A stretch of DNA of 64,000 bases from Antedon mediterranea (taxonomy: Eukaryota > Echinodermata > Crinoidea > Comatulida > Antedonidae): contig NC_092672.1 of assembly GCF_964355755.1 (NCBI RefSeq), positions 11,590,501 to 11,654,500 of the forward strand. The letters run 5' to 3'. Under the pieces are notes generated by a model. It did no database searches. It saw nothing but the letters and a program-made list of their open reading frames with translations, and had not been told where the DNA came from. Each line of letters starts with the position of its first letter. Position 1 is the stretch's first letter. This document shows, one piece after another, positions 3,906-26,000 of this stretch. Both the position numbers and the translations under genes were made by a program.

Positions 3906-6900
3906 TTACTGTTCGTTTGAAACACCTTCACTACTATTTTTACTGGCTCTAGACATTTTACTCTTCTTAAGATCGCCCTGTGATTTATTCTTTATTTTTG
4001 ACATTTCCTTTTCTGTGTCAGATTTTTTATTTTCATACCAGTGATTTCTTCTCCTTCCATTTTCGAACCTTTCATTTTTATAATCTTTTTTAATAGATTG
4101 AGCAAAATGGGTATCATGTGGTGGATATCTACCGAATTCAGTTTCATTACTATTACTGTTACCATTAACAGCCTGATCAGTATGTTGGTAAGTGGTCGAC
4201 TTTTTCCATCTGAATTGTTCATGGTTTTTGTAATGTTTGTTTACAAACACCCTGTCTTTCCCTTCAACCTTAAATGGACCTTTCTTTTGGTTCCTATGTT
4301 TTCCACTATTTAATAAACATTCCTTATATCTGTCAGCGGCTGACCGGTTGGTGGAACATGCCATTGGTAGTAGAGGGGCAGACTCTTTATTAAACTCATT
4401 TGGAGAAAATGAACCTCTCTCTGTAGATTTATCTGATGGTGGAAATTGCACCAGTTGAGAACCTGAAGTTGGTAATAGCGAGGTTGTTGGTGTTGGTTGC
4501 AGAGGAGCTGATCCCTCTTTAAACTTATTTGGTAGTGGAAGTGAACCAGAATGTTCTGTTAAGTTACCTGATGTTGGTAACACTAATGGTGATTGAGCAA
4601 ATTGTATTGGGGATGGTTTAAAGTTGTCCACAACCTCAGACTGCAAGTCATTTCCAGTTTCAGTCCATTTAGGCAAACTTTCATCAACTGTATGTGAAAT
4701 AAAATTTATTTATTTTTTATGCTCTTGTCAGAAAATTTAGTTATGTGCTAGCTAATTCAACATCAATAGAGACATCTATGACACTGTAATAATGAGGGAA
4801 TAAATACTATATAAAACAAGGGTATGGTGACTACAAGAACACAGAACGCTCATTGAGAACTGGAAATCCATTCATGAAAAATGATCAAATACATGATGAA
4901 AGATGTACTGTATTCCAAAAAAAAGATTTAAAAAAAAGATATTGAACGGGTCATTTCGCAGTTTTAACAAATGTAATCAAGTCCATAGAAAAAAAAATAT
5001 AAGAAATAGTTTTCACTTATAAAAAGACATAATAAACGTTAAAATTCAACCAAAAACTCATTTACTTCCTATTAATTTGAATATTTTTGTGTTAAACTAC
5101 AGTTTCTTCAGGTAAATATTTTTTTTTTCGATCACATTTTTGGTCAAAGTGAATAACTATTGTGACATTAAAATTAAAAACATATTTTAAACAAGTACAC
5201 TAGTTTTATTTTATATCAAAGTATTCAGTGGATCTTCTAATAACAATTAATTATATTAAATTATTATACTTAATTTCAAAGAAAACATCAGAAAATCTCA
5301 CAAAGAATTAAACACTTACGTATGTGTATTATAATGAGGAATGCAAACTGGCATTTTATTCTAAAATATTTGCCAGTTCGTGGTTCACATGGATCTTACA
5401 TGTACACTGATTACAAAATACAGAATAAATGATAAAATAATATATATCAATAAAGATATAAAATCAAAATATTGGTTTTAATCAAAGTAATGTCTTACAT
5501 TTCCATGCTTTTTCACCAGAAAAATTGTTGTGTTGAGGGATACTTGAAGGCGTGAACTCTCCAGATACTGCTGCTTCCGAGTTCATTTGCAATTGGAACA
5601 TGGCAAAGCTCCGCATAAGATCTTTCAATTTCTCAGATGTACTCGGTTCTGTAGCATCATCAAAATCAAACCCAGAACCACCAGATGGAAGAATAGGTGG
5701 TAGACCGTTGGCAATATAGCGCCTGAAATGTCTGCCAGTGGTATTGTTTTGAGCAATCCACTCCGGAGATGGCATGCTGTCTTTTAAATTTGCAATATAC
5801 TGTAATTAAACAGAAAACAAATCTCATTGATACTCATCATTCGAACATCGCATAAACTTCTACATTAAAACAAACTAACATCATATGACAAGCAATAGTA
5901 ATGCAAAATTGAAACTTTCTTAATTTAGGAACCAGCAGTAAATACATTTCTGTTTATTTGCTTAGTTTATTTTAGAAACCTTTTGTGTTAGTCATTGGAC
6001 TGCCTCATAAACTTCTGCATTGACGAACTAAAATCATACTTTGTTGCAGTGGAAAGATGCGGTATTGCAGTAACTGCAGTAGATTAATTAAATTGAACAT
6101 GGTCCCTTAAGAAATCGTTTCTTACGTGACCTACCAATTGTTGCGTTACAACGTTGTCTTCCGATTTTACAGGAAACCGGGATTTGTTATCTTACGCTTG
6201 AATGAACGCCCTTGTGTCACGTTTCTTACGTAAGCGCAATCGTAACAAGCAACCAATAAGCGAAAAGAGTTATGACGTAATGTGTATGTCCTTATAGTGA
6301 AATAAAGCCGGACAATAACATTTGTATATGTATTTTTACTACTATAATTTTAGCCCACTTTACGATGTTATACATACTTTACAAATGCACAGTAGTTTCG
6401 ATATAATAATGTTCTAATCAGGGAGTTTACAACTCATATCAAAATATAATACTCTTATTTATGGACGTGCAATAAACAATCAGCATTTCAAAGAAATCGA
6501 CATTCTTCTGTTCTATTTGTCGGTAGAAACGTCGCGAAAATGAACATTTGCAACAAGATAAGATATAGAAAGCCCCTTTGTAAGCAATATAATATTATTA
6601 TGTAACTTTAAAAAAAAATTGTTTGCTTGATTTTGTATAATTTATATTGTTTTGTTAAATTTATTCTTATTATAGGCCTGTAAATAATGGGTATCTTACT
6701 GCGGTAGTACTATCTCATGCTCGATTAGATATGCTTATAGGCCCATAGGCCAATGACTAGCCTAGGGCCTAGATAGGTTTAATAATAATAGGAATCTCGA
6801 AATGATTTGCCTTTTTTAAATTTTGAAACTATTTAAGGCTAGGCCTAGAGGGCCAGGATAATTCATTTATATTTTGATTCATACAATAGTACAAAGGCCT

Positions 6901-17027: not shown

Positions 17028-20000
17028 ATGGGTAGATCTTCAAAAGATAAACGTGATATTTATTATCGTCTTGCTAAAGAAGAAGGTTGGAGAGCTAGAA
17101 GTGCATTTAAATTATTGCAAATTAACGAAGACTTCGATATATTTTCAGGTAAGTTTTACTCCATCCATGTCCATACATATGGCATGTATCGGGATCCAGT
17201 CAAGTCGCCCCATCGCAAAGTCGCCCCATACAAAGTCGCCCAATACAAAGTCGCCCCATCGCAAAGTCGCCCCAAAACAAAGTCGCCCCGGCACAGTCGC
17301 CCCATTACAAAGTCGCCCCATCGCAAAGTCGCCCCATCGCAAAGTCGCCCCAACGCAAAGTCGCCCCATCGCAAAGTCGCCCCATCGCAAAGTCGCCCCA
17401 TCGCAAAGTCGCCCACGGTTTTATTTCGGAAGTGCCGCCGCTAGTAGTAGTACGCTGTTTTAATCATATAGCGGTTGCGTTTGATATCGATTGCGTTGTT
17501 ACTTTGGTCGCGCTAAAGGTCGTATACATTATAATGTTTATCCTATTAATATATACATAATTTGTGTTTTAATTTTTATTTTACAGGTTTTAATGGAGTG
17601 ATGTGCTTTTTAAAAATCATTAAAAAATAGTCCCTTGTTTGAAAGTTCTAAAAAGATTTCGAAAAGATTATCCCTGATTTATAGTTTCGAAAATAATTTA
17701 ATATGATTTTAAAATTAGTTACCAGAGCCACAATTACGAATCTTTCTTCAACCTACGCGTGGATACCAGCTCATTTTTTAGGATAATATAATAAGTGTAT
17801 AAATAGTAGGCCTTCGTATATTTACAGTAGTTAAAACAATAACAGCGTTGTAAGACAATAAATGTTATATATAGGCTACTTATTGATCATTTTGCATTTA
17901 TTGACAACTTATGTGTCTATAGTTATTTAATTTTAATTATGACTTGAAGAAATAAAAAAAGGGGGATTTCTTCGCCGATATGATCGTTTTACACATGCAG
18001 GTATTTTAGTAAAATTAAAACGCTACATTTTGACCATGGAAAAACCATCGTACAGTATGATTATCGTGTGCGTGTTTTTTTTAAAAGGGGAATCCCCGAC
18101 GGGCAGCAGAAAGACGTAGCAGCTGTGAGAAGGAAACAGATACGAGAAGGAGCAGCTCCGATTGGTTTCAGAGAATGTTTCAGATTGCGAGTCGCTTTTT
18201 ATTCAACAGCAGAATGATCATTTTACTGAAGAAATTCTTTTCAACCCTTTTTGTAATAGAACATTCTAATTATCAATGTATCATGCCTAATAAATATCCT
18301 CATATCGGGTGTTTATTTAATTTTAATAAACAAGACAGTGAAGAGGCACGGAATTACGTACACGGACGTACGACGAATACACACATGCACGTCATCATTT
18401 ACGACATATAGTGGCGATATGATGCAATTTTATAATGGATATAATGATGGGATTGCATTTCCAGGCTTATAATCAATGTTCATTGTAATACTATGTATAT
18501 AATAGTAAACTGAATGTTTATAAATAAATTGTTTTACCTAATTTGTTGCATATAAAAATAAAAGACACAGACGTAGCCTACGTTCCCTATAAAATATTTC
18601 ACATTTAAATTTATGTACTGTTAAATGACATTATGCTGAATAATAGGCTTACTATAATCTTAAACTATGTTTACAAATTGTCATTTTTAAGGCACACATC
18701 TTTCTCTCATCATAGACCTCAGTGTAAAATAAAAACAAAAATCAATTATTAATATAGGCCTAATAATAATAAATATTCATCGACCAAAGTAAAAATAATC
18801 TAGATCGTATAACATCATTTTATCGCGACCAAAATTAAACGCCACCGATTTCGAACGCGACTGATATCATCGTAAAACTCCGACGGGGTTTCCCCATCTG
18901 CAGATGGTGCGTTGTAGTGCGACAACGGCGGAGTAATTACGGGGGGTTTCCCTCTGGTGAGAGCTAGCACGTTAGTGCGACCGCGGAGTGATTAGTTGGG
19001 GGCTTCCTCTCTGATGATTGGGGAGCGTGCCGATCGTGTGACCTGAGACTACATGGCGGGGCTTCCCCTTTTATGCCTACACGTTCCGTGTTATTTTGTG
19101 TATCATTGCGACATTTTACGCACTTTTAAACTATTTTTTAACGTTTTGGGGCGACTTTGCGATGGGGCGACTTTGTGTTGGGGCGACTTTGCGATGGGGC
19201 GACTTTGCGTTGGGGCGACTTTGCGATGGGGCGACTTTGCAATGGGGCGACTGTGTCAGGGCGACTTTGTTTTGGGGCGACTTTGCGATGGGGCGACTGT
19301 GTATGGGGCGACTTTGTATGGGGCGACTTTGCGATGGGGCGACTTGACTAGCATCCCATGTATCATGCGGCATGGTCCTGCATGGTAAGCCTAACCTGGT
19401 CCTAGGCCTCGGCCTAGTTAGGCTAGCCTAGGCCGGTCCTACTACTAGGTAGCCTAAAGCCTATTTTAGACTTTAATTAATAGCCTGCAGACAGGTTAGT
19501 TTAGCTAGCTAGGCCTACAACTACATTCTAAAAAGGCTAGGCCTAGCCTAGTAGAAGATAGTAGAGTAGTAGTAGTACTAGGCCTAGTAAGTAGTAGGTA
19601 GTACTACTAGCCTAGTAGGTTGAATAGGCTCGGCCTACCTAGTAGGCCTAGTAGTACTACTATATATGGCTCGGGCTCAGTATATTAGCAACATTAGGAA
19701 ATGAAAATTCTCAAAAACAAATGTTGACGAAACATTTTATAATTGTTACTAAACTAAAGTGCAACATCTATATTTACTTCTCTGTTATTTTCCTCACATA
19801 ATATTTATCAATGTAAAATTGTCAACAAAATGAATGATTGCAACTGGAATCGTGGTTGTAACCTACGTTACATGTTTTATTTTCGACTTTCAATGTAAAC
19901 GATTATAAAGGCAACAATATTATATTTCTATGAATATGAAACTATAAAATAGTGTATGTAATCAAACAAAAACATGTATAATAACTTACATATTGTTACA

Positions 20001-23000
20001 TTCACTAATACATATTGTATTTTATAGTTTATACTTTATTAACATCTATAATAAAATGAGTCGTCAATCAAAGGTTGTTGTTGATTTCTTGTATGTCCGC
20101 ATACATTCCTGTCTTAAATTCACATAAATTAACACTCATTATTGTACTCTATTAAATAGTCATATGACAAAACTGGTGTTATCTTTCTTAGAAAATGTAT
20201 ACTGTGTTACAATTGAGTAACGTAAATTACGTATTCAGTAACGTAAATTACTGAATTGAAAGATGAATTCGTCATCAAAATAGTTAAATAAAAACAACAT
20301 TTGTAACTTTTAACAATAAACCTCATTGGTATTTTAGATCATTGCCATCACTTTAGTAGGCAAACAGATTATATGTTTCATTAAATCATCCCTTTTTTTT
20401 ATCTTCTATTAATTCAATGCATATTTTATATGTATAATATATATTTATTCATAAAAACTCTCATATGAAAATGTAAATTAGTGAATTTTATAATGCTAGT
20501 GTACATACTATTGTTTTGGTTAATATGATTATTATTATTTATTATAATTCTGTGAACTTTACAGTTGCTTGGCCTAATGCTTATATCAGTCTCAACTTTC
20601 TTAGTAACGTAAGTTACATTTCCTTTAATGTTTCAATTAATTGATTTGATTGCTTCATCGGGGCTTGTGATTGTGATCACACCTAGAGATTTTAATACGT
20701 TTAACTGAAGGGCAAAGTTCTGATGTTTTTGGCAAAGACTTGTGTTTCTTGCTGTGAATTTGACAAGTTTAATATTAGCATTTCTTTGTCGGATTTTCTT
20801 AAACGAGGAAAAAGAAACCTTCCGTTGCTCGGGATTTTCACTTTTGTACTTGGCAAACAAGTTCATCATGTAATCATTGAGGTATCTTATCTGGCGTTTT
20901 TCTTTGGTAGAAGATGTTTTGCAGGCATCTCGTTTTCCTGGCATCATCCTGGAGTTGTCATCTCTTTCCATGAAGCCTAATACTTCATTATGAAGAACTC
21001 CCCACGCCTTTTTTACATACTTCGCAGCTGTGATTCCTTGCTTTTTCGTCTTGGATAGGTTACGTTGACCAAGGCCCGACTCCCTTGAAACACGCGCGAT
21101 TAACCTGTATTTCTTGATTATCTTTCCAGATAGAACATTGCTAATCATTCTTCTGGCCTTCTGCCCTTGATTTATCTCTGTGCTCTCTCTTATTTCATCG
21201 AGCAGTGCATGTGAAAGCAGGAGTTGTTTTTTCAACCCTTTGGGTACTGATCTTGGTGACATACCTAGAAAATTGGAAATTACATCAATACTAAATTAAG
21301 TACGGTTTAGAATATTTAAATATTATCTCAATTGATATGTTCAGGAAGATAATGGTTTAAGCGGCATGTAATGGGCAGAAAAAGAAAATACGTATATTCA
21401 CATCACCATACACGACATGGAACAAGTTATCAATTATAAGGCCTTGAGTACATTTTGTGGATATTTGCTCTATATTATAAATAGCCAATATTATCATTAT
21501 TAATAATAATTATGCGTGAATAAAACAGTACATTCATTCGTGACCTACCTGCATTTCGTAAATCCTGATTTGCTTTCGATCTTGGAGAGTCAGTACTACT
21601 CATGGACGAGTCATGACTGGTAGATGGGATGCAATTCTTATTTACTTTCTTCAAAGCTCTTTCATAGCGCTTGTTTATGGTTTTTTTTTGTATGGTCATT
21701 TTCTGTAACTCCAAATTTAATTTTTCGATGCGACGATGGGCTCGACTTAGTGCTCTGCCAACACGTTTTCGAGTAGAAATACGTCTCTTAAACGACATCT
21801 TGATGCGTAGAGGAGAAGTTGGTGAAACCACATCGGAAGATATGGCTGAATCATCATTACTACTACTAGGTTCGTCAGCTTCTTCTGGGTGTTGTACTTG
21901 TAGTTGGGCTTGAACTTGCTTCACGTACCTTCAATGTTTCTGTACTCTTCTTTTCACCGTCGCTCTCCGTGCATTTCTATCTCTTGTTGTAAGTTCTGCT
22001 GACGGAACATAGTATTTCATTGCACGTCTTGCTTCTGCTTGCAAGTACTCTGCTCCTCGCTTCTCTTTTTGTCGTTCCCGATACGCTGCCTGAATCTCGG
22101 CTCGTGACTTTACCATTATCACCAGTGTCACCTAGTGTTTAACAAAATGTATTAGTATTAAATCGAAATAAACAAATAGTAAACTATATTTTTACACTTT
22201 AAATAACCATAATGTAAAAAAATACATTGACTTTGTATGTAGTAAATTATGTAACTTACGTTACCATGAACTTACTATTAATACTTGTGAGTATCGATAT
22301 TACAATGAAACAAGATGTATCCAGGTACATGACATACGTTTGACAATGAATATTCATAAACATATATACACAGATATTATCTTAATATCATTGCTATGTT
22401 CGGTAATGTTACAACAACATAGACATACAACATCAATGTGAAACTTACGTTACCATAGTATCAAGGGCAAAGAAACTTCCCATAAAATAACCCTAAATAA
22501 AATCAACTCCGGTTGGAGGTAATGTTCATTATTGCCTGTATAATATAACTTAAATTATTTGAATATACTGAGTAGAAAAAAAACAAGACGTCTTAGAAAT
22601 GAGGTATATAAAATGGTAACCTACGTTACATGTAGTGTAATTTACGTTACGTTGTTGCCTATACTAGCTTACTAGTGTAAATTGTACAATGTAATAACAT
22701 ACTTGCATATCTGTCTAATTTCCTAAATTATAAACATTAGGAAAGTTGTTCTAAATGATCTTTAGTGAATTAAGCATTTGAATACTTACTAAAATATACT
22801 CGAAAATCTGATATATGACGAATAAACTATGAAATTGTGAAGAAGTATTTATAAAAACGTGGTCAAAATTGCCGCTGTCTGCCGAATCACGTGGTTAAAA
22901 CTTTTTATTGTTTCAGAGGGCGTTTTCTTGATCATAAGAATATCTGTATTCCTTAGAAATGTCCACAATATTAAAGCTCATCAGTAACAATATATATGGT

Positions 23001-26000
23001 AACGTAAGTTACCATAACGTAAATTTCAAATGAACTTCAAAGGCTCAAATAATTAAATCTTAAAACAACAACAAAATAATCAGTTTAAAATTAAACTTGA
23101 CGTAACTAATCTTATAAATTATTATAACATGTGTGTACACAAACCGGATCCTAAGAAGAAATGGGGTAACGTAGGTTACATCGCTTAACCAATCGTTTTT
23201 CATTAACACTTTCCAGGCAATTTTATAACGTATTTACATTATATTTCATCCGCGCAAGCAATATAATCGTTATCAAGAGTACAAATCACATATAATACGA
23301 AGAAAAACACTTTTATAGGTAATTATTAATTGATATTTAATGCATTTTTTAAAGTCTGTAACGTAAGTTACGTCATTTGTGCGACATATTTAATTGAAGA
23401 ATTTTTTTAAATAAAACTCATTTTTTGTCAAAATTTCACTTACATGCATTAAACGTATAGGTAAGGCTTCAAAATATACAGTATTTACAATGATAAATGG
23501 GATTATATTTAATTTTTACACTAGTGAATATTATGAAATTGGCCGGCGACAGGCGGTTTTGTGTCATATCATGAAGTTTAAAGTGACATTATTTTTTAAG
23601 GGCAAGGATTTTCAAAATGAAACTTGGCCAATACAAAGAATAACGTTTCCTGTACCGTCATAACGCTTTAAATCACACTTTTAGTGCATAGTTTTAAATA
23701 TATACAGTAACACAGTAATTATAGGCGACATTGGTTTTTCATATTCGTGTTGGTATAGTGAGCCTGAGCCATATACCTATATATGGTAGGCCTATATAGG
23801 ATAGGGATCTACTAGATAAGCTAGTGGACTAGAGTAGAGAGCATTCGACTCGGGGACATTTCACCTTTTTTGTATACGTCATTGTTGTTGCAGAAAACTC
23901 TCCCTAGTCTAAGCCCTCTAAGCACTGGGATCCAATGTAGTAGAGAGGAATATGGCCGTCGGTCTAAAGAAGAACTGAAGGAGGAACAAAACAATACAGT
24001 GAACGCCCATCCAAACTTGAAGTTTCTGCATCTGAACATTGGAAACCAGCAGTTAATGCACCAGTCATCAGCCTTATGCACTTATCAATTGTATGACCCA
24101 CTATACGACCCCCGGGAGAGGTGCGTCATGGGTGCGTCATTTACAAATAATTACTGACGCAAGGGTGCGTCAAAAAACCTAGATGGTACGTCACATCAAT
24201 GAACAAGGTGTGTCAATGTCCGTCACTTTACCACCCACCATATCATAAACAACATGGTCACAGTGCATCAAAATAGGTGCGTCATGGTCACCTAAAGGTA
24301 AGTCACATTTTTGACGCACAGGTGCGTCATGGTATTCAAAGGTATGACGCACATCGGACAAATGACGCACCTCTCCCGGGGGTCATATAGTGGGTCATAC
24401 AATTGACAAGTGCATTATTATTTCGTAGAACGAGAGTACTGCAGACTTTGGCTACTGCTGATGCTGGCTAAGTTGTGCAGTCTCAATTTGATTGATCAGG
24501 AACACTAGCTTGAACCACCAACGGATGGCCTGGAAAATACCAGCCGGCCCGGTTGTGTCATTGTAATGCAAAGATAGAACACTAATTTGAGTTTGGCACC
24601 TAAAATTTTCCATTTTTAGGCCCTGGCCCCTATTTAAAATGAGGCACAGTTGTGAAGTGGGCCTAAAGTGGCTCTTGGCAATGTTGGCTCAATTGATTGA
24701 TCAGGAACATTAGGTTAAATCACCAACAAATGGCCTAGGGAAGACCGAATTTTGGTGGTGGTGTGACGTTGCGTTGATAGTGGGGAAGAACAGTGAACAA
24801 CCATCCAAATTTTAAGCTTCTGGATCTGAGTGTTGGAAGCCAGCGGTTGCCCCAGTCATGGTTGCCCCAGTCATGGTTCTCCCAGTCATGGTTCCCCTCA
24901 ACTGTTTATATTACAACTGTCAGATATCTGGCACATGGAACGAGTAGAGCAAATGGAAAGTGAACTTCAGCCTGTAGAGGCAACACGGCAGATTGCCTTA
25001 TTTTGGCGATCCCACTACATTCCCCACTAATTTAATTGTGAAATCAGCGCTCTGATGGCTCCTGGCCACTTCTAATGCTGGCTCAGCTGTGCAGTGGGCC
25101 GTTAAGAGTGGCCCCTGGCTACTGCTAATGCTAGCTCAGCTGTGTAGTAGCCCTAAGAGTGGCTACTGCTAATGCTAGCTCAGCTGTGCAGTGGGCCTAA
25201 GAGAGTGGCTCGTGGCTCCTGCTAATGCTGGCTCATCTGTGCAGTGGGCCTAAGAGTGGCTACTGCTGATGCTGCTCAGCTGTGCAGTGGGCCTAAGAGA
25301 GTGGCTCGTGGCTACTGCTAATGCTGGCTCATCTGTGCAGTGGGCCTAAGAGTGGCTACTGCTGATGCTGCTCAGCTGTGCAGTGGGCCTAAGAGAGTGG
25401 CTCCTGGCTACTGCTGATGCTGGCTCAATTTGATTTCAGGAACATTGGGTTGAACAACCGATGATTGTCAAGAATGTATACTTTTCCCTGCAGTGGCACT
25501 GTTATGGACGTTTCAGTACTTAAGGTCATAATCTTGTTTCATCCACTTCTGGGTTTGGTTGAGTGTCTTCCTTCCTGGTGACTCCATGAGCATCGCAAAT
25601 GCTTTCACTACTGTATTTCAGCATCACACAGTTGGTGCTTCCCCATCGGACAGTGGATCGGTATTGCCCGAACATAAGGTTGTCTGAAAGGTTGACTCCT
25701 CATTCTTACACCTGAAACAGCTCACCTCCCAGAACTTCATCAGATGCATTGCCATTCAGAATGAATTTGTCCATCCCATTCGGCAAGTCGAGGAGAGAGA
25801 TTGGATCCCAGTGAAATTGGTCACTTCACAGACGTGTAGCTTGTCTATCAAACTTCCCAATGAACTCTTTAATATTAATTACCAGCTCTAAGAACAGTTG
25901 AACTTCAGTGCATTTACTTTGTACAAGCACTATACAGATCAGATGATAATTATGTATGTACATTTTCATATTGTAGCAGACAAAAGCTTGGATGTGGTAG

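Follow-up and report, generated by a model that had tools for sequence, protein, structure and literature searches.

The window analyzed here is a 64,000-nucleotide stretch of the crinoid Antedon mediterranea (assembly GCF_964355755.1, contig NC_092672.1, positions 11,590,501 to 11,654,500), and it contains a DNA transposon copy of 4103 bp at 19668–23770, with a gene on the minus strand. The element has GGCTC ends. A left 17-bp terminal inverted repeat on the plus strand (19668–19684, GGCTCGGGCTCAGTATA) lies on the gene's 3' side, and its counterpart on the minus strand (23754–23770, GGCTCAGGCTCACTATA when read on the reverse strand) lies on the gene's 5' side; the two are identical at 15 of 17 bases and are flanked by the target-site duplication ATAT (19664–19667 and 23771–23774). 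A first-pass annotation, made from the sequence alone, had reported a DNA transposon here with inverted ends next to ATAT, and this overall observation is confirmed; its interval, 19669–23770, starts one base inside the element.

The two-exon gene for a basic protein that the same annotation described is present as well. Exon 1 (22116–21549, minus strand) starts with an ATG and encodes a basic N-terminal region; it is followed by a 284-bp GT-AG intron (21548–21265) with an AG|GT donor and the acceptor TTTTCTAG, and by a remnant of exon 2 (21264–20633), which stops just past an internal-deletion junction at 20637/20638. In full copies of the element, exon 2 comprises 1937 nt with its stop codon. 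An in-frame TGA at codon 62 (21933–21931, minus strand) further interrupts exon 1. Neither this stop nor the deletion figured in the first-pass description, and the deletion becomes apparent only through other copies.

On both sides of the gene, the element carries 14-bp palindromes of the form GTAAY-N4-RTTAC (GTAAYNNNNRTTAC). All ten occurrences in the window fall within the element, compared to a mean of 0.61 and a maximum of 3 in 100 shuffles. They read GTAACCTACGTTAC (19858–19871 and 22616–22629), GTAACGTAAATTAC (20217–20230 and 20238–20251), GTAACGTAAGTTAC (20604–20617, 22999–23012 and 23358–23371), GTAACTTACGTTAC (22251–22264), GTAATTTACGTTAC (22637–22650) and GTAACGTAGGTTAC (23166–23179), and a near-palindrome with one mismatch, GAAACTTACGTTAC, lies at 22440–22453; together these account for the roughly eleven copies originally noted. 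As also noted, none of the ten overlaps an exon: six precede the ATG at distances of 135 to 1242 bp, and the other four are past the gene's 3' end. Across the genome, GTAACNTANGTTAC was found at 107 places, 82 of them in the window and in the loci L001–L016 introduced below; the remaining 25, some of which may sit in unfetched parts of partial copies, compare with 62 for a reversed control pattern. Occurrence of the motif apart from the element, which the earlier reading had named as evidence against itself, is thus below the control level and leaves that reading intact. We also rejected the palindromes as chance or ordinary genomic sites, given 10 versus 0.61 in shuffles and their rarity, relative to the control, outside the copies.

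Further copies were sought with a 17-mer end pattern, allowing up to two mismatches, across the 354-Mb genome (G000) containing the window. The pattern was found at 59 places, compared to 38 for a control; copies were drawn from the 28 places with an exact match (23) or one mismatch (5), the 31 two-mismatch places being left unfetched. Of these 28 ends, 22 pair up into 11 two-ended copies and six stand alone. The names L001–L016 cover the six single ends and the ten two-ended copies that lie elsewhere in the genome. By BLAST similarity to the window element, three of the single ends (L006, L012 and L014) belong to partial copies; the other three (L013, L015 and L016) contain an end-like 17-mer only, without such similarity, and were rejected as copies.

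The search for copies sharing the ends, proposed as a check by the first-pass annotation, therefore returned a family with defined boundaries. Exact 4-bp duplications flank 10 of the 11 two-ended copies (TATA, TGTA twice, TACA, TATT, TGTT, TTGA, TACT, TTTA and ATAT), and the eleventh, L001, has TCCT/TTCT, with one mismatch. The flanks of all 11 copies were in addition compared with the fetched loci. Joined to a single copy of the duplication, the flanks of L003 match locus L028 at 197 of 200 bases without a gap, and at 97.8% over a longer stretch of 498 bases. L003 was the only one of the 11 with such an end-to-end match across the joint, the flanks of L007, which lie in a repeat, giving partial matches only. 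Exact duplications and this empty site show that the element's limits reflect a genuine insertion. Furthermore, L003 and L009 occupy separate sites, with different duplications, and yet share 100% identity, which indicates recent movement.

Six copies (the window, L001–L004 and L009) measure 4084–4103 bp, and three (L005, L010 and L011) are full-length at 5360–5373 bp, or about 5.37 kb. L007 (3720 bp) has an internal loss different from that of the 4.1-kb class, and L008 (9461 bp) contains inserts; within this copy, an insertion of about 600 bp (L008:1166–1761) resembles a short interspersed nuclear element, in that a tRNA-like segment and A-rich tracts can be seen by eye. The 4.1-kb class equals the 5.37-kb class minus a common internal deletion of about 1.27 kb net, with an identical junction in six of six copies. 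Identity, aligned with L008 left out, is 99.2–100% inside the 4.1-kb class, 99.4–99.6% among L005, L010 and L011, and about 98.5–98.7% between the classes.

The longer coding region that the first-pass annotation suggested looking for is present in the full-length copies. With the same 284-bp GT-AG intron, their joined exons encode 834 amino acids (aa) in L010 and L011 and 830 aa in L005; within their ends, L010 and L011 contain no other frame of at least 100 aa, and L005 has one further frame of 109 aa on the opposite strand. The protein consists of the basic N-terminal region, a predicted DDD core (D486, D568 and D610) and a small conserved C-terminal domain. The window copy retains residues 1–398, and all three aspartates were lost with the deletion. 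Five 4.1-kb copies have a start codon that fits the search pattern (window, L002, L003, L004 and L009), and all five contain the codon-62 TGA, which is absent from L005, L008, L010 and L011; the sixth 4.1-kb copy, L001, has a changed start context that does not match the pattern, and further stops. The window copy is non-autonomous: it keeps both ends and all palindromes and cannot make the enzyme, given the codon-62 stop and the missing residues 399–834. All ten palindromes are likewise retained in six of six 4.1-kb copies, a class presumably mobilized in trans. The first-pass description of a gene without a nameable catalytic core is accurate for the window copy because the internal deletion removed the core; the core is present in the full copies, and we rejected the argument for a new superfamily built on its absence. 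More generally, a transposon 'gene without catalytic core' can stem from internal deletion, which is visible only through sibling copies.

In L010 the triad reads D-81-D-41-D, and the spacing D(75-83)D(40-41)D is conserved in six of six proteins measured (L010 and five relatives) and in L038, a further relative described below. The six proteins share the motifs DF[AS][EQ]N[YF], D[GS]..Q[YF][KR] and HGK..xDG[IV]GG. On the alignment, these aspartates are the putative catalytic triad, and the hydrophobic stretches before the first two and the helix-like stretch after the third would fit an RNase-H core. A search of the genome with exon 2 gave at least 71 matches, a lower bound with 69 of 217 candidates scored, and the divergent relatives are mostly 28–45% identical. 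Proteins of this DFAENY type occur commonly in animals, where they lack annotation. As a further check proposed at first pass, the core was searched in Pfam, NCBIfam, PHROGs and PDB, and even the full core gave only sub-threshold matches to unrelated families and none to a transposase; the exon-2 protein of L010 has no Pfam match at E <= 1. For the C-terminal domain, the PDB matches were Agenet and DUF724 proteins, all below threshold (E 0.14–0.7; 0.24–0.36 in a second search, with another protein at 0.33), and the Pfam matches were weak, among them MORC2 chromo-like at 0.014–0.045; we claim no identity for this domain. No relatives were found in viral contigs, a first bacterial scan or phages, in scans reaching close relatives only.

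In a tree of 13 cores, the window family groups with L020 (0.958); the other groups are L017/L019/L028/L033 (0.989), L023 with L032 (0.997) and L021/L024/L029/L030/L031 (0.986). Among these cores, the second aspartate is missing from L030 and the third from L028 and L032, losses that are taken for decay, and L023 stops before the third. L038 is contig JAAEPJ010000558.1, filed under a bacterial metagenome-assembled genome, and encodes a 705-aa relative (39% identity in the best segment). This contig is largely made up of a eukaryote-type transposon and is probably stowaway eukaryotic DNA, that is, contamination of a public bacterial genome record.

The relatives have ends of their own: GGGTCATTCC in L017, L018, L025–L027 and L033, GGGCAATTCC in L021, L024, L029, L034–L036 and L038, and GGGCTATTCC at the left end of L030. 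One end was found for L019, L022, L024, L028, L029, L031 and L037, and none for L020, L023 and L032. Twelve relatives are delimited on both sides, several of them copies of one family, and ten of the 12 have exact 4-bp duplications (L017, L018, L021, L025, L026, L027, L030, L033, L034 and L035). The L017/L018 transposon has a 2.58-kb derivative with an internal deletion, and the three copies of it that were read, L025, L026 and L027, are 99.96–100% identical; 29 more genome places with a 142–145-aa frame may belong to the same derivative. We take this for a related non-autonomous family that has multiplied in a recent burst.

The Sola superfamily (Sola1, Sola2 and Sola3) reportedly goes back to Bao et al. 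in 2009. Sola elements have a DDD triad, 4-bp duplications, sizes of mostly 2–9 kb and inverted ends of very variable length, from 11 to 1124 bp (PMC10741241); Sola2 duplications in slime molds are 4 bp long and AT-rich (PMC3627910), and in bivalves, curated Sola1 elements have a mean length of 5445 bp (PMC10294476). The family in the window shares this profile: 4-bp duplications are exact in 10 of its 11 copies and in 10 of 12 delimited relatives, a putative DDD triad is found in six of six proteins measured and in L038, and ends of 17 bp on a 5.37-kb element contrast in length with ends of about 520 bp in L017 and L018. We therefore consider it probable that the window contains a non-autonomous, internally deleted cut-and-paste transposon of the Sola superfamily, with palindrome docking as part of its mechanism. 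The earlier interpretation stands for a DNA transposon with subterminal palindromes and its own gene; it is not supported, as worded, for the missing catalytic core or for the view that this combination belongs to no known superfamily, since 4-bp duplications, a DDD triad and variable inverted ends are the Sola profile (PMC10741241).

An unnamed superfamily distinct from Sola, merely sharing 4-bp duplications and a DDD triad, is in our judgment unlikely. It would account for the lack of a transposase-family match in Pfam, NCBIfam, PHROGs and PDB, and for GGG-ends and subterminal quasi-palindromes, which, like palindrome arrays next to the ends, are not mentioned in the excerpts of two Sola descriptions (PMC3627910, PMC10741241). 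However, a group this diverse within one genome (13 cores, several lineages) would hardly have been missed by Repbase curators, and, of the 20 DDD/E superfamilies listed in PMC9587614, only Sola is known to have a profile that fits.

Other superfamilies fit less well. Chapaev elements make 4-bp duplications. Those of Kolobok and piggyBac are also 4 bp long (PMC9587614), but they are TTAA, which is the duplication in none of the 11 two-ended copies, and no Pfam domain of these superfamilies was found. A C/DxxH motif lies between the second and the last catalytic residue in Kolobok, hAT, P, MuDR and Dada (PMC9587614); no conserved motif of this kind was seen by eye in the corresponding segment of the alignments. 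CACTA, Mirage and Chapaev elements have CAC ends and C(2)C and H(3-4)H motifs (PMC12730594), but the ends here are GGCTC, and the 41-residue segment between the second and third aspartates of L010 contains no C-x2-C. We regard an element of a TTAA-specific superfamily (Kolobok or piggyBac) or of CACTA/Chapaev as scarcely credible. Ginger elements have a Gypsy-like integrase and 40–270-bp inverted ends (PMC10741241), unlike the 17-bp ends and the Pfam-negative exon-2 protein of L010.

The palindromes of the window element have counterparts in four more lineages (L021; L024; L029 with L031 and L038; L030), each with its own repeated 13–14-bp quasi-palindrome, GTAAY-like in three. These are GTAATGCGAGTGAC in L021 (six exact copies, two with one mismatch), GTAATTCCGTCAC in L024 (three exact, one with one mismatch), GTACGTCCGAC in L029 (six exact) and GTAACTCGCGTTAC in L030 (four exact, one with one mismatch and one with two), and the sites lie outside the coding frames found (the first exon of L030 was not found). 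Between its GGGCAATTCCAT ends, L038 contains the motif TGTACGTCCAACAC eight times when up to two mismatches are allowed, and the last of these sites directly adjoins its right end. Its motif nearly equals that of L029, and the architecture is therefore not private to the window's genome. A motif copy also abuts the inverted end on the gene's 3' side in L021, L024/L034/L035, L029/L031 and, imperfectly, L030.

Searched with the window's own half-sites at up to two mismatches, L021 (9 sites versus 1.5 expected) and L030 (6 versus 1.3) exceed 200 of 200 shuffles, as do the window and L010. L020 is a borderline case, its count being reached in 22 of 200 shuffles, and L017, L019, L023, L024, L025, L028, L029, L032, L033 and L034 stay below that level; where a relative is not delimited by two ends, a guessed interval or the entire locus was used. 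L024 and L029, which fall short here, thus use a motif distinct from the window's, in which the spacer is 3 bp or the half-sites are different. Basic N-termini coincide with palindromes in the window, L021, L024 (in part), L029 and L038, and Cys-containing N-termini with their absence in L017 and L019. A link between N-terminal type and palindromes was nevertheless dropped: L023 is basic and no array was found in it (its ends are not established), and the N-terminus of L030 was not found. N-terminal similarities are weak, the best being about 7e-8 (L021–L024), with 0.005 between the window and L023. In the literature searched, among the papers listed and as far as excerpts, titles and opening abstract lines go, neither the subterminal architecture nor these ends were found described; the motif letters returned only papers unrelated by title, as did the end-sequence letters among the matches listed. 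The family is thus probably new within a known kind, and its relatives share an end architecture for which these searches returned no description.

Several observations weigh against a Sola element with palindrome docking. The Sola assignment is drawn from published descriptions of the elements and is putative at the level of transposase sequence, which also speaks for an unnamed superfamily. AlphaFold, run without an alignment, gave mean pLDDT values of 33.3 for the L038 core and 35.6 for its C-terminal piece, so that the RNase-H fold stays a prediction. L036 and L038 lack matching 4-bp duplications. The palindromes of the window family never abut the ends, the nearest being 190 bp inside. 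The GGGTC-ended L017, L018, L025 and L033 are free of GTAAY palindromes, and not every relative therefore needs such sites. GTAAY-N4-RTTAC is also absent from L020, which stands closest to the window family in the core tree, and no such array was seen in L032 or in L023, which has a basic N-terminus. In L017 (1490–1513) and L033 (2197–2220), the terminal 24 bp, GGGTCA...TCACCC, form a quasi-palindrome at the extreme end, and families without subterminal palindromes may have this in their place.

We propose the following mechanism. The 834-aa transposase, acting as a dimer, would dock on the subterminal 14-bp palindromes, each with two GTAAC half-sites four bases apart; several occupied palindromes per end would bring both ends together cooperatively, and the enzyme would then cut at the GGCTC termini and insert the element through a 4-bp staggered cut, giving the 4-bp duplications. 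The 4.1-kb class, having kept ends and palindromes, would be moved in trans. Docking is suggested by the position, recurrence and symmetry of the palindromes, which are probably transposase-binding sites. Binding of the palindromes by an element-encoded factor, as suggested at first pass, has become likelier, because other families with the same transposase type carry analogous arrays; the binding itself is putative. CACTA/Spm and MULE elements have subterminal transposase-binding repeats. The window family may work like them, with many short motifs in both subterminal zones near short inverted ends and possibly cooperative binding, but it is not a member, its ends, 4-bp duplications and catalytic motifs being unlike theirs. 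Hermes, a hAT element, offers a similar parallel in that its oligomeric transposase binds the transposon end at multiple sites (PMC10368747), as putatively here; hAT duplications, however, are usually 8 bp (PMC12730594) rather than 4 bp, and Pfam finds no hAT domain.

Palindromic half-sites are also typical of dimeric transcription factors, and the six sites upstream of the ATG would suit a promoter or enhancer of the element, or host factors. However, the remaining four are downstream of the gene, the copy abutting the 3'-side inverted end in L021, L024, L029/L031, L030 and L038 is not expected of a promoter, the motif varies by family, and outside the fetched copies it is rarer than the control pattern (25 versus 62). 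Such a purely regulatory role is, in our estimate, rather improbable compared to transposase binding. Truncated P-element proteins act as repressors. By comparison, the 4.1-kb class might be kept as a regulator whose 61-aa basic exon-1 fragment could occupy the palindromes and repress, which would agree with the codon-62 TGA in five of five copies with a matching start codon and with ten intact palindromes in six of six. Yet a stop and a deletion are also what neutral decay of a trans-mobilized derivative gives, and L001 has a changed start context and further stops; we consider this regulator highly unlikely.

Beyond transposase docking in this family, a broader proposal is offered tentatively, as one that may well prove wrong: an unnamed superfamily or undescribed Sola lineage of eukaryotic, probably animal, DDD elements may use a basic N-terminal domain to read arrays of 13–14-bp GTAAY-type palindromes, one site being fused in most families to the 3'-side inverted end, with half-sites and spacing changing along with the N-terminal domain. 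If true, binding specificity would be written in the DNA ends. The family is complete and apparently recently active, with intact autonomous copies, a presumably trans-mobilized deletion derivative and an empty site; related families with a comparable but altered end motif serve as natural variants, so that end recognition becomes directly testable, in an enzyme group without a Pfam model or a PDB relative detected in the searches here.

Two further structures neighbor the element in the window. A 2.15-kb structure at 17198–19349, 318 bp to its left, has inverted arrays of the 16-bp tandem repeat AAGTCGCCCCATCGCA and its complement, with arms of 203 bp that are 96% complementary, and is possibly another, unrelated transposon with tandem-repeat ends. 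To the right, 24076–24415 contains a 61-bp inverted repeat (92%) with arms 218 bp apart and recurring GGTGCGTCA words.

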